Positions 34,897 to 38,461 of a stretch of 64,000 bases of DNA are shown here, piece after piece. The notes beneath the pieces are model-generated. The model saw only the letters and a program-made list of their open reading frames with translations, had not been told where the DNA came from and did not search any database. The stretch spans positions 1 to 64,000 of the forward strand of contig NZ_FUIC01000016.1 of NCBI RefSeq assembly GCF_900163695.1, written 5' to 3'. The stretch comes from Gulosibacter sp. 10. Lineage in GTDB: Bacteria > Actinomycetota > Actinomycetes > Actinomycetales > Microbacteriaceae. Numbering within the stretch: position 1 is the first letter of the stretch; the number at the start of each line of letters is the position of its first letter. The position numbers and the translations under genes are program-made.

Positions 34897-35193
34897 ATGT
34901 CCGTAGTGAAGATCAACGCGATCAGCGTCCCCGAAGGCGCCGGCTCCGAGCTCGAGAAGCGGTTCGCCGCCCGGCAGCACGCCGTGGACTCGGCCCCCGG
35001 ATTCGAGGGGTTCCAGATGCTCCGCCCCGTCGTGGGCGAGGACCGCTACTTCATCGTGACGACCTGGGCCAGCGAGGAGGACTTCCAGGCCTGGCAGCGC
35101 GATCGGGGCCCGCACGGCGGCAAGGGCGGGGGCGTCGCGACCGGCGCCCAGCTGCTCGAGTTCGAGATCGTGGACCTCGCCGCGCAGCAGTAG
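34897..35193 (+). CDS. mhuD: MhuD-like haem-degrading monooxygenase
   Basis: 98 residues from the ATG at 34897 (AAAGGAA upstream). The sequence tracks M. tuberculosis MhuD along its length: VVKINAISVPEGAGSELEKR, GFEGFQMLRPVVGEDRYFIV, and VATGAQLLEFEIV. Residues needed for haem cleavage are present: Asn7, Trp66 and a His at 73 in the loop that carries the axial His75 of MhuD. Members of this ABM-fold group bind haem as dimers and release iron. Two iron boxes lie just downstream, which supports a place in iron supply. The box at 35237 is downstream of this gene, so its own regulation is not shown by sequence. Confidence 0.85.
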   Translation: MSVVKINAISVPEGAGSELEKRFAARQHAVDSAPGFEGFQMLRPVVGEDRYFIVTTWASEEDFQAWQRDRGPHGGKGGGVATGAQLLEFEIVDLAAQQ

Positions 35194-35236: not shown

Positions 35237-35255
35237 TAAGGCTGACCTAACTTAA
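35237..35255 (+). promoter_or_regulatory. DtxR/IdeR-like iron box upstream of the YrdC-like gene
   Basis: TAAGGCTGACCTAACTTAA, 14 of 19 matches to TTAGGTTAGSCTAACCTAA, 22 bp before the start codon at 35278. Confidence 0.6.
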
Positions 35256-35277: not shown

Positions 35278-36057
35278 ATGGCCGCAGAACGCGTGCAGTG
35301 GAACGGCGGATTGCAGGAGGAGGCCGACGCGATCCTCGCGAAGGGCGGCGGCATCGTCGTGTGCCCGACGAAGGTCGGATACATCATCCTCGCCGCCGAT
35401 CACGAGGGGCTCGAGCGCAAGTTCCGGGTCAAGGGCCGCGCCCGCAACAAGCCCGGCGTCGTGCTCTGCGGTTCGATGGAGCAGCTGCGCACGCTCGCCC
35501 GGCTCACGCCCGAGATCGAGGAGTTCTACCGGCTGCACTGGGAGCAGGACATCCTCATGGGCTGCATCCTGCCGTGGAGCGAGGAGGGGCGGGCCCTCAT
35601 CCCGGACGACGGCTCCGCCGAGCTCGTCATGGACGGGCGCGGCACGAGCTGCTTCATCATCAAGTTCGGCACGCCCGGCGAGCTGCTCGCGCGCTCGCGC
35701 TGGGATGCGGGGCGGGGGCTGACCTTCGCGAGCTCCGCGAACCCCTCCGGGCAGGGCAACCGCGGCGTCGTCGAGGGGATCGGCGAGGCGATCGCCGCCG
35801 AGGCCGACCTTGTGATCGAGGGCGACGAGTACGTGCGCTCGATCCAGCCGGAGGCCACGTCGGAGACCCGGTACGAGCAGGGCGTGATGGTGTCGTTCGT
35901 GGACGGCAGGGGAGCGCTCGTGCCCGAGCAGGGCGGCAAGCGCTCGGTCGTGCCGGCCCCGACGGTGATCCGCAAGGGGCTCGACATCGACCGCATCATG
36001 ATGAACCTCTCGGCCTGCTTCAACAGCTGGGACTACCGCCACGGCGAGTACTACTAG
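35278..36057 (+). CDS. Sua5/YciO/YrdC-domain protein, non-housekeeping type
   Basis: 259 residues. The YrdC fold is marked by GGGIVVCPTKVGYIILAADH, the KGR segment in FRVKGRARNKPGVVL, and the late FASSANPSGQGN. In the family these features bind ATP and threonine/bicarbonate to make threonylcarbamoyl-AMP. Differences from TsaC/Sua5, such as the long middle region EFYRLHWEQDILMGCILPW and the C-terminal extension ending SWDYRHGEYY, suggest a side branch with another acyl or carbamoyl substrate. An iron box lies in its promoter, and a terminator after it separates it from the PrpD-family gene, which has its own iron box. Confidence 0.72.
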   Translation: MAAERVQWNGGLQEEADAILAKGGGIVVCPTKVGYIILAADHEGLERKFRVKGRARNKPGVVLCGSMEQLRTLARLTPEIEEFYRLHWEQDILMGCILPWSEEGRALIPDDGSAELVMDGRGTSCFIIKFGTPGELLARSRWDAGRGLTFASSANPSGQGNRGVVEGIGEAIAAEADLVIEGDEYVRSIQPEATSETRYEQGVMVSFVDGRGALVPEQGGKRSVVPAPTVIRKGLDIDRIMMNLSACFNSWDYRHGEYY

Positions 36058-36174: not shown

Positions 36175-36193
36175 AAGTGTTAGGTGAACCTAA
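36175..36193. promoter_or_regulatory. DtxR/IdeR-like iron box upstream of the PrpD-family gene
   Basis: On the minus strand TTAGGTTCACCTAACACTT, 13 of 19 matches to the IdeR/DtxR consensus with an exact TTAGGTT half. It lies 25 bp before the GTG start at 36219. Confidence 0.55.
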
Positions 36194-36218: not shown

Positions 36219-37595
36219 GTGACCGAAGTGCAAGACCTCGCCGGATTCGTCGCCGAGGCGAGCTGGGAGACGCTCAGCCCCGAGGCGCTCGAGCAGCTCA
36301 AGATCCGGGTGCTCGACACCCTCGGCGTCGCGATCGGCGCGCTCGACGCCGAGCCGATCGTGGCCATCCGCGGACTGCTCGACGACCTGGGCGGGACCCC
36401 GAGCGCCACGCTGATCGGCGGCGGCCGCACGAGCCCCGAGCGCGCCGCGTTCTACAACAGCGCGCTGAGCCGCTACCTCGACTTCATGGATTCGTACCTC
36501 GCGAAGGGCGAGACCAACCACCCCTCCGACAACCTCGGTGCCGTGCTCGCCGCGGCCGAGAGCGTCGACGCCTCCGGCGCCGAGCTGCTCACGGCCCTCG
36601 CGGTGGCGTACCAGGTGCACACGCGCCTCTCGGACGTCGCGCCGGTGCGCGCCAAGGGCTTCGACCACACGACGCAGGGCGCTTTCGCCGCCGCCGCGGC
36701 CGCCGCGAAGGCGATGCGCCTGCCCGCGGAGCAGATCGCGAACGCCGTCGCGATCGCCGGCACCGCGAACGCGGCGCTGCGCGTCACCCGCACCGGCAAT
36801 CTCAGCCACTGGAAGGGGCTCGCCTACCCCCACGTCTCGAAGGAGGGCGTCTTCGCCGCGCTCCTCGCCTCCCGCGGCATCACTGGCCCCGAGGCGGTCT
36901 TCGAGGGCAACAAGGGGTTCAAGGACTCCATCGCCGGCGACTTCGAGCTCGACTGGTCGGGGGAGGACCTCGAGAGCGTGCTGCGCACGATCATCAAGAA
37001 GCACAACGCCGAGATCCACTCGCAGTCGGCGCTGGACGCCGCGCAGGACATCCGCGAGCAGGCGGGCTTCGACGCCGCCGCCATCGAGCGGGTGTGCCTG
37101 GACACCTTCGACGTCGCCTACTCGATCATCGGCGGCGGCGAGGAGGGGGATAAGCGCAGCATTCGCACGAAGGAGGAGGCGGATCACTCGCTGCCCTGGA
37201 TGGTCGCGGTCGTGCTGCTCGACGGGCGGCTGAACCCCGAGCAGTACGAGCCGGAGCGCATCGTCGCCGAGGACGTGCAGCGCCTGATGGCCAAGGTCGA
37301 GATCGCCCCGAAGGACGAGTTCTCGGCGCGCTTCCCCGACCACATGCCCGCCGATCTCGAGGTGGTGCTGACCGACGGCACCGTGCTGCGCGCGACCCGC
37401 GACACCTACCACGGCTTCCACGACAACCCGCTCGACTGGGGCGCCGCGCGCTCGAAGTTCGACGCGCTCGCTGCGCCCTTCGCCTCCGAGGCGCTGCGCG
37501 ACGAGATCGCCGAGATCGTCCAGGACCTCGAACATCGCGACGTCGCCGACCTCACAGCCGCGCTGGCGCGGGTCTCCGCCGCGCGCGAGCACTGA
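36219..37595 (+). CDS. MmgE/PrpD-family protein
   Basis: 458 residues from a GTG start at 36219 with GGAG eight bases upstream; an earlier in-frame GTG falls inside the iron box and is rejected. The family fold is marked by YNSALSRYLDFMDSYLAKGE, NHPSDNLGAVLAAAES, GFDHTTQGAFAAAAAAAKAM and NAEIHSQSALDAAQDI. Known members are 2-methylcitrate dehydratase, cis-aconitate decarboxylase and iminodisuccinate epimerase, none of which needs an Fe-S cluster. No prpB or prpC lies beside it, so a propionate role is doubtful. It is followed after 29 bp by the phosphosulfolactate-synthase-like gene, so the pair forms an operon under a probable iron-dependent repressor. Confidence 0.85.
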   Translation: MTEVQDLAGFVAEASWETLSPEALEQLKIRVLDTLGVAIGALDAEPIVAIRGLLDDLGGTPSATLIGGGRTSPERAAFYNSALSRYLDFMDSYLAKGETNHPSDNLGAVLAAAESVDASGAELLTALAVAYQVHTRLSDVAPVRAKGFDHTTQGAFAAAAAAAKAMRLPAEQIANAVAIAGTANAALRVTRTGNLSHWKGLAYPHVSKEGVFAALLASRGITGPEAVFEGNKGFKDSIAGDFELDWSGEDLESVLRTIIKKHNAEIHSQSALDAAQDIREQAGFDAAAIERVCLDTFDVAYSIIGGGEEGDKRSIRTKEEADHSLPWMVAVVLLDGRLNPEQYEPERIVAEDVQRLMAKVEIAPKDEFSARFPDHMPADLEVVLTDGTVLRATRDTYHGFHDNPLDWGAARSKFDALAAPFASEALRDEIAEIVQDLEHRDVADLTAALARVSAAREH

Positions 37596-37624: not shown

Positions 37625-38461
37625 ATGACCAACGCAGTCCCGCACGACGTCTCGTTCAACTTCGTCCCCCGCGCCTACCGGCCGCAGAAGCCCCGCACCT
37701 TCGGCATGACCGAGGTGCGCGCCCCCTACTACGACACCTTCGGCACCCGGCACCTGCAGGACGTCTTCGACGTGGCCGGCCAGTGGGTCGACGGCATCAA
37801 GTGGGCCGGCGGCTCGTTCTCGCTCATCCCCGTCGAGCAGGTGCGCAGGTTCAGCGAGATCGCGCACGAGCACGGCGCCTACGTCTCCTCGGGCGGCTGG
37901 ATCGAGACCGTGCTCCGCTACGGCGACGACGCGGTCGACCAGTATCTCAAGGAGGCCAAGGAGGTCGGCTTCGACGTCATCGAGATCTCCACCGGCTTCA
38001 TCATGCTCAACACCTCCGGCCTGCAGCGGCTCGTCGAGAAGGTCGTCAAGGCCGGCCTCAAGGCCAAGCCTGAGCTGGGCATCCAGATCGGCTCCGGCGG
38101 CGACTCGGGCGAGGCCGAGCTCGCGGCCGAGAGCGCCAAGGACATCGGCGACCTCGTCGACCGCGGCCGGAAGGCGCTCGACGCCGGCGCCTCGATCATC
38201 ATGATCGAGTCGGAGGGCATCACCGAGAACGTGGGCGAGTGGAACACCGGCGCGGCCGCATCCATCATCAACGGCCTCGGCCTTGAGAACGTGATGTTCG
38301 AGGCCGCCGACGGCCCCGTCTTCGAGTGGTACATCAAGAACTACGGCAACGAGGTCAACCTCTTCGTCGACCACACCCAGGTGCTGCAGCTCGAGGGGCT
38401 CCGCCAGAACATCTGGGGCAACAAGAGCACGTGGGGCCGGGTGATCAACCCCGCCCCGTAG
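37625..38461 (+). CDS. Phosphosulfolactate synthase-like (ComA-family) TIM-barrel protein
   Basis: 278 residues. Conserved parts include RTFGMTEVRAPYYDTFGTRH, DVAGQWVDGIKWAGGSFSLI, YVSSGGWIETVLRYG, FDVIEISTGFIML, GIQIGSGGDSGEAELAAE and LFVDHTQVLQLEGLR. This is the family of (2R)-phospho-3-sulfolactate synthase, which adds sulfite to phosphoenolpyruvate in coenzyme M synthesis; many bacterial and plant relatives do something else. No other coenzyme M gene is present, so a different reaction on a PEP-like substrate is likely. It is in an operon with the PrpD-family gene. A very long terminator follows. Confidence 0.8.
   Translation: MTNAVPHDVSFNFVPRAYRPQKPRTFGMTEVRAPYYDTFGTRHLQDVFDVAGQWVDGIKWAGGSFSLIPVEQVRRFSEIAHEHGAYVSSGGWIETVLRYGDDAVDQYLKEAKEVGFDVIEISTGFIMLNTSGLQRLVEKVVKAGLKAKPELGIQIGSGGDSGEAELAAESAKDIGDLVDRGRKALDAGASIIMIESEGITENVGEWNTGAAASIINGLGLENVMFEAADGPVFEWYIKNYGNEVNLFVDHTQVLQLEGLRQNIWGNKSTWGRVINPAP

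Follow-up and report, generated by a model that had tools for sequence, protein, structure and literature searches.

A PrpD and ComA-like gene pair, preceded by iron boxes in many Actinobacteria, as a possible iron-free two-enzyme bypass of aconitase

The closest described relatives of the two-gene unit considered here are phosphosulfolactate synthase (ComA), the enzyme of coenzyme M synthesis, and the 2-methylcitrate dehydratase PrpD. The unit lies in a 64,000-nucleotide stretch of Gulosibacter sp. 10 (the window; RefSeq assembly GCF_900163695.1, contig NZ_FUIC01000016.1, positions 1–64,000; 71% G+C, source genome 3.65 Mb and 99.08% complete), where a ComA-like gene (37625–38461, + strand) follows a gene of the MmgE/PrpD family (36219–37595, + strand). 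ComA of M. jannaschii (structure 1qwg) and of B. subtilis (1u83) share with the window protein the Pfam family, the fold, the glutamate core, D56, K59 and R260, but the M. jannaschii enzyme is only 24% identical over the aligned part and its K137, R170, N227 and R244 are Gln, Glu, Phe and Trp in the window clade; further, the window gene, unlike ComA, has a PrpD partner, an iron box and no coenzyme M genes that could be found. The ComA of Xanthobacter Py2 (L134) is likewise homologous (25% identity) and likewise sits in a small gene cluster, but in it both the Lys (K153) and the Arg (R184) are retained, and argininosuccinate-lyase and fumarate-lyase genes come after it. The 2-methylcitrate dehydratase PrpD (1szq) has the motifs HPSDN, LRxxR and AExHSQ in common with the partner, which nonetheless scores at most 158 bits against the equivalog models of this type (158, 135 and 120 bits; cut-offs 950, 575 and 458). 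Members of the DtxR/IdeR regulon carry the same palindromic 19-bp iron box near the start codon. Aconitase and the other [4Fe-4S] isomerases would resemble the pair in the proposed conversion of citrate to isocitrate alone, their proteins being unrelated, with one enzyme against two and no iron-sulfur cluster expected in the pair. Tentatively, and at somewhat below an even chance, the pair is read here as a mobile two-gene module that forms an iron-free, two-enzyme bypass of aconitase and is iron-boxed in many Actinobacteria.

The ComA-like open reading frame begins with ATG and encodes 278 amino acids. Its product is a full-length member of the ComA family, as a sequence-only reading of the window had claimed, matching PF02679 with 245.6 bits (gathering score 25.2, E 6.4e-73) over profile positions 3–242 of 243, and it was the sole PF02679 match genome-wide at E 0.001. 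The phosphosulfolactate synthase equivalog TIGR03849, an archaeal model, gave 77.1 bits, below its curated cut-off of 280. Relatives were pooled from 80 genome-record loci (the best of a clade-pattern scan in which 463 of 532 matching stretches encoded a relative), from plasmids and from further genomes, and 132 sequences were aligned. Identity to the window protein fell into two groups, with 103 sequences at 43% or above (of which at least five are repeat fetches of a genome already included) and 29 at 27% or below, the latter taking in M. jannaschii ComA (residues 26–249) and the Xanthobacter coenzyme M enzyme; the window protein and its closer relatives are thus a separate group of their own inside the ComA family. 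A gammaproteobacterial sequence that surfaced after the clade count (L166, genome G666) stands between both groups at 39% identity, with Met at the K137 position and K148 kept, and an actinobacterial gene with internal stops (G1658) was excluded from later counts. Elsewhere in the family, an Arthrobacter plasmid (L022, 9001–9750) carries a ComA-family gene of a different clade (23% identity, Lys kept) clustered with a CocE/NonD hydrolase, thioredoxin reductase, thioredoxin and a UGSC family (seleno)protein, and this may perhaps be another ComA function beyond those assigned. Yet another actinobacterial clade (L104–L109, L111 and L113) has an SdhA-like flavoprotein match (96–115 bits) in the flanking 1.5 kb.

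The active site of the clade was compared with that of the 29 other ComA proteins, using the numbering of M. jannaschii ComA for the four positions that separate them. The K137 position is Gln in all 103 clade sequences and Lys in 29/29 others, R170 is Glu in 102/103 (Arg in 27/29), N227 is Phe in 102/103 (Asn in 29/29), and R244 is Trp in 102/103 (Arg in 26/29). We take M. jannaschii Lys137 to be the proposed catalytic acid of ComA. Between 101 and 103 of the clade sequences retain Asp56, Lys59, Gly90-Gly91, Glu94, Glu120, Ser122, Glu150, Glu195, Glu226, Glu257 and Arg260. Basic residues specific to the clade are R32, R272 and K148, the last a novelty present in 103/103 that lies two residues ahead of Glu150 on the same strand of the predicted model. 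The pattern suggests that the metal and carboxylate core has been retained and that the phosphate and sulfite side has been rebuilt. A phosphorylated acceptor is unlikely because all four distinguishing positions are replaced in nearly all clade members. The earlier suggestion combined phosphoenolpyruvate (PEP) or a PEP-like acid with a non-sulfite nucleophile; the active-site pattern supports the second part and speaks against PEP. The predicted model (mean predicted local distance difference test score 74) matched 1qwg with Z 25.4 (root-mean-square deviation 3.0 over 237 residues) and 1u83 with Z 23.6 (2.2 over 219 residues), while the top match from another family was PEP mutase at Z 15.5; PEP mutase, pyruvate carboxylase and 2-methylisocitrate lyase were the next triose-phosphate isomerase (TIM) barrels, at Z of about 14–15.5, which is no proof of function. 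The predicted model fits the ComA fold far better than other TIM barrels, and the fold search says no more than this.

The partner gene was assigned to the MmgE/PrpD family from profiles (N-terminal domain 255 bits, C-terminal domain 151 bits), relatives and invariant residues. A GTG at 36219 was chosen as its start since many relatives open with MTEV, a longer reading beginning at 36177, and the gene stops at 37595, 29 bp upstream of the ComA-like gene and on the same strand, which bears out the earlier pairing of the two. The closest solved structure is 2-methylcitrate dehydratase 1szq (E 5e-29), with cis-aconitate decarboxylase at 8e-20. Eight residues are invariant in 99/99 clade PrpD sequences (H101, D104, D149, H150, R188, R191, K199 and E265); R188, R191, H101, D104 and K199 align with 2-methylcitrate dehydratase, and the cis-aconitate decarboxylase in the alignment lacks R188, R191 and D104. 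PMC9468356 describes a PrpD mutant, made to supply cis-aconitate, whose activity on citrate is raised.

PrpD was found upstream of the ComA-like gene in 72/80 genome loci, and the pair spans Actinomycetota, Pseudomonadota, Salinibacter and haloarchaeal plasmids; it is plasmid-borne in Methylosinus, Methylocystis, Salinibacter and several haloarchaea. Gap and strand statistics were taken from the 99 of 119 loci with usable calls of both genes, duplicates left in. Both genes were on the same strand in 99/99, with a gap of −60 to 150 bp in 92/99, the seven exceptions being four haloarchaeal pairs 0.6–3.6 kb apart and three at 151–152 bp. The distances among ComA-like proteins correlate with those among their PrpD partners (Mantel r 0.86, reached by 0/999 permutations, duplicates included), and Rhodanobacter and one actinobacterium have ComA-like proteins that are 88–89% identical and PrpD proteins that are 75–77% identical; from these we infer that the pair has moved jointly between phyla. 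This wide recurrence, and the iron boxes described below, go beyond the sequence-only reading. Two plasmids bear on PrpD relatives outside the pair. In Bradyrhizobium (L023, 4337–7765), PrpD, a PrpF-domain protein and a distant ComA-family gene occur consecutively, near hydantoinase B and a tricarboxylate transporter binding protein. In Caballeronia (L137, 5559–11731), a 43% PrpD relative with no ComA-like gene nearby sits beside hemerythrin, ferritin-like and manganese catalase genes, neighbours that suggest an iron or oxidative stress setting for that PrpD branch too.

The DtxR/IdeR box is given as TTAGGTTAGSCTAACCTAA in PMC1382209 and PMC8464063, and the latter proposes TTAGGNNNNCCTAA as a redefined IdeR target. 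Boxes were scored against the 19-bp consensus TWAGGTTAGSCTAACCTWA from 250 bp upstream to 40 bp inside each gene. A predicted box precedes the window prpD (36175–36193, + strand, 14/19), and 36180–36193 is an exact copy of the 14-bp TTAGGNNNNCCTAA, which occurs once in the 64 kb and in 0/100 shuffles. In a first count across all phyla, a box of at least 14/19 preceded 50/108 prpD genes compared to 22/1330 other genes. Among distinct actinobacterial loci, the window included, the figures were 42/62 for prpD and 3/647 for other genes of the same loci with non-overlapping upstream regions (Fisher p 1e-48, with related genomes treated as independent), after seven distant-family loci (L187–L192 and L194), duplicates with identical PrpD ends and loci with <150 bp upstream had been dropped; such boxes were found in 18 of the 27 actinobacterial genus labels. 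At a threshold of at least 15/19, the counts were 29/62 and 2/647. The true consensus reached 14 in 39/56 loci and 60 permuted consensus strings in 0–3/56, and the boxes lie 3–206 bp before the prpD start, 34/39 of them under 70 bp. Since boxes of the DtxR/IdeR type precede prpD in many Actinobacteria, the pair is probably switched on by iron starvation there. Fur-like boxes (at least 12/19) preceded prpD in 5/9 gamma- and betaproteobacterial loci (in one the box overlaps the called start), compared to 14/160 control genes from 18 proteobacterial loci. Overall, the predicted iron link is strong in many Actinobacteria and weaker in the gamma- and betaproteobacteria. PMC8464063, the regulon paper checked for the pair, mentions neither PrpD nor phosphosulfolactate, and no record of the pair as a regulon member was found. 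A literature search, not exhaustive of print, returned no paper linking phosphosulfolactate with PrpD.

Aconitase is the classic iron-sulfur bottleneck, failing at low iron or high oxygen radicals, and in Corynebacterium it is reportedly repressed under iron shortage. PrpD-type enzymes need no iron-sulfur cluster. The methylcitrate cycle leaves the dehydration to PrpD and the rehydration to aconitase, which means that PrpD by itself performs half of what an aconitase does. An aconitase bypass is proposed because an apparent iron switch is found together with a PrpD that has intact dehydratase-type residues and resembles an enzyme of citrate-like tricarboxylates, and with a ComA core that lacks the phosphate and sulfite side. 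The PrpD-type enzyme would dehydrate citrate to cis-aconitate without an iron-sulfur cluster, and the ComA-type barrel would then add water, not sulfite, to cis-aconitate and yield isocitrate. The chemistry of ComA, the conjugate addition of a nucleophile to an α,β-unsaturated carboxylate, would be kept while the phosphate and sulfite side is lost; putting water for sulfite and cis-aconitate for PEP would turn the ComA reaction into the missing half of aconitase. Acting in series, the two enzymes would replace a [4Fe-4S] isomerase, most probably aconitase, under iron scarcity. Stated in full, the idea that PrpD-type dehydratase and ComA-type hydratase together make a previously unrecognised iron-independent aconitase, carried between bacteria and haloarchaea on a two-gene cassette and induced by iron starvation in many actinobacteria, is offered as possible and not yet as probable. 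As part of that tentative reading, the ComA-like protein of this clade would not be a phosphosulfolactate synthase.

Several observations weigh against the aconitase bypass. The loss of basic residues suits a tricarboxylate less than it does a less charged substrate, R32, K148 and R272 notwithstanding. The iron boxes are not universal: the seven distant-family actinobacterial loci have none (best 9–11/19), adding them brings the count to 42/69, and 9/27 actinobacterial genus labels stay below 14/19. Searches upstream of prpD gave no iron box for nine alphaproteobacterial or similar loci, for Salinibacter or for the haloarchaeal loci, and the solo ComA-like genes have no convincing box (best DtxR score 12/19). 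The two genes are 3–7 kb apart on further haloarchaeal plasmids; those of Halorussus vallis lie on opposite strands, about 34 kb from each other. Further, the ComA-like gene is solo in 8/80 loci (L076, L079, L089, L090 and L092–L095), and a PrpD of this type was absent at E 1e-40 from these eight genomes, from G666 and from G215 of the same phylum (0/10, with both positive controls found). Because of the eight solo genomes without such a PrpD, the pair is not obligate, and there the ComA-like enzyme can serve without this PrpD or pair with another dehydratase. Other regulatory signals were sought with little result. In the nine alphaproteobacterial or similar loci, Irr-type boxes (best 9/15, with 24/160 controls reaching 10) and Fur boxes (best 11/19) did not rise above chance. 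Among the inverted repeats that lie ahead of prpD in haloarchaeal, alphaproteobacterial and distant actinobacterial loci, no motif in common was seen by eye. A promoter and terminator scan gave nothing exceeding chance, and Rfam gave 0 matches.

Neighbouring genes were clustered using 1663 gene calls from 120 loci and 58 genus labels (taken from record titles or genome handles), loci of 1.5 kb being excluded. ComA (57 labels) and PrpD (51) were the only widespread clusters, and the larger conserved operon that was looked for did not emerge; no third family was common to most lineages, the maximum being 8/58. Named by eye, the next clusters were short-chain dehydrogenases (8) and ATP-binding cassette (ABC) ATPases (6), followed at 5 labels each by YrdC-like proteins, 2-hydroxyacid dehydrogenases, major facilitator superfamily (MFS) transporters, aldehyde dehydrogenases and zinc alcohol dehydrogenases, and SdhB of one type was found in 4. 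True succinate dehydrogenase (SDH) subunits occur inside the fetched stretch in 7/120 loci from six lineages (L015, L018, L066, L075, L101 and L208/L209). This linkage is a post hoc observation, and the expectation of roughly half a locus for the 1.79 Mb of total stretch was calculated by assuming one sdh locus per 4 Mb genome and is not an empirical control; L057, L058 and L204 were not counted, each having just a single SdhA/FrdA-like flavoprotein that scores below the equivalog cut-offs listed. The SDH genes are 3–4 kb from the pair in Methylosinus and Haladaptatus, and adjacent or one gene off in Candidimonas, one proteobacterial metagenome-assembled genome and Rhodanobacter. In the Brachybacterium-type group, sdhC-sdhA-sdhB comes after the pair with one small opposite-strand gene call between. 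One locus of this type (L208, 9148–15318) has the pair between sdhC-sdhA-sdhB and ectoine-degradation-like genes (ectoine hydrolase DoeA model 711 bits, a class III aminotransferase and an aldehyde dehydrogenase).

A recurrent minor neighbour in the window is a Sua5/YciO/YrdC-like gene (35293–36057, or from a start at 35278, + strand; PF01300 38.6 bits), itself preceded by a predicted DtxR/IdeR-type box (35237–35255, + strand, 15/19). It is present in 16/199 family genomes, 5/8 of those with clade ComA compared to 11/191 others, and is thus associated with clade ComA, though the genera are related, without being required. It adjoins the pair in 5/80 loci in varied orientations and is distant in one. 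A box of at least 14 precedes 2/7 YrdC-like copies, that of the window (15) and that of L056 (14, 218 bp away), and a link of the window gene to iron is possible. Relatives at about 63% identity occur on Rhizobium, Scandinavium and Enterobacter plasmids, one of them near chorismate mutase and an ABC transporter. Directly ahead of the iron-boxed YrdC-like gene sits a small ABM-family monooxygenase (34897–35193, + strand; ABM 57 bits, HmuQ model 33 bits with a cut-off of 130), which was not found in the 80 related loci. Its Asn7, a Trp and a His resemble the heme-degrading triad of IsdG/MhuD, and this genomic neighbour of the pair is possibly an IsdG-like heme-degrading enzyme.

A true phosphosulfolactate synthase, acting for sulfolactate or coenzyme M, would agree with the PF02679 match and with 1qwg, 1u83 and 9cm1 as nearest solved folds, and ComB-family genes do occur in 9/36 clade-bearing genomes. 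ComB (PF04029), already called absent in the earlier reading, was, however, not found in the whole Gulosibacter genome (the control matched in 7/14 named genomes), nor in 27/36 others. The same reading had also called ComC absent, which does not stand at the level of the family, since its broad fold family PF02615 (Ldh_2) has three copies here. According to PMC12068725 and PMC11507031, the bacterial coenzyme M pathway takes a course beyond the ComA step that differs from those of archaea. No lyase of the Xanthobacter second-step type adjoins the ComA-like gene, and the Xanthobacter argininosuccinate-lyase-like query found at best a 31% identical protein in the genome (query residues 51–447 of 483) that looks like an ordinary superfamily member. 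For the genes searched, ComB and the second-step lyase, the earlier remark that the gene has no coenzyme M context was borne out. The missing ComB, the four residues replaced throughout the clade, the TIGR03849 score against its archaeal model and the lack of a close second-step match led to the rejection of a coenzyme M or sulfolactate role; such a role would also leave the iron boxes unexplained, and is considered very improbable.

Three other alternatives were weighed. The pair might make or recycle an organic acid for iron acquisition, such as a carboxylate chelator, or a sulfonate or thiol adduct, PrpD supplying an unsaturated acid to which the ComA-like enzyme adds sulfite or a thiol. 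The iron boxes fit this, sulfite is the ancestral ComA nucleophile, and sulfur genes neighbour some of the pairs, namely TusA and a sulfur transporter in Brevibacterium (L034), DsrE in Salinibacter and a sulfurtransferase in Halorussus halophilus; the ABC ATPase and MFS clusters are compatible with uptake or export. These sulfur neighbours were not seen as a common cluster, however, no third cluster exceeds 8/58 genus labels, and the clade has lost the basic residues that would be expected to bind sulfite and phosphate; the idea is judged unlikely. Metabolite repair, with the pair clearing a by-product of the tricarboxylic acid cycle (trans-aconitate, 2-methylcitrate or enol-oxaloacetate) that builds up when iron-sulfur enzymes fail, would suit a stand-alone cassette with SDH neighbours in six lineages and the occurrence of solo ComA-like genes; enol-oxaloacetate repair was considered owing to those SDH neighbours and retained as a rival only. 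Repair alone leaves the dehydratase-type residues kept by PrpD unexplained, FAHD is already known as a widely conserved family of tautomerases, and the SDH linkage is post hoc and present in only 7/120 loci; this too seems improbable. A replacement of another aconitase-superfamily isomerase under iron starvation, either isopropylmalate isomerase (LeuCD) or the enzyme of methylaconitate hydration, would involve identical chemistry and the same iron logic, with PrpD dehydrating and the ComA-like enzyme hydrating. The aromatic residues new to the clade (F65, F125, F247 and W264) could suit an isopropyl group, and a Corynebacterium pair (L043) lies between genes that by eye resemble serA and leuB. 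That position is presumably just the native gene order there, a leuB-like cluster was found in 2/58 genus labels only, and R188 and R191 of PrpD (99/99, and also in 2-methylcitrate dehydratase) suggest a tricarboxylate; such a replacement is likewise judged unlikely. By eye, neither prpB nor prpC was seen near the pair in the window or among the recurrent clusters, no family search having been made for them.

Plasmid records label members of this clade as phosphosulfolactate synthase, and the label is probably wrong. Even if the reaction proposed here is not the right one, the pair still appears to be a metabolic module responsive to iron, with an active site that differs from that of ComA, and the annotation should not be transferred. 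If proven, the aconitase bypass would be a new kind of aconitase and would account for many genes that currently carry the phosphosulfolactate synthase name. If true, microbes may carry out a step of central metabolism with no iron-sulfur enzyme, and models of iron limitation in microbes would have to change to take in a transferable iron-free bypass.
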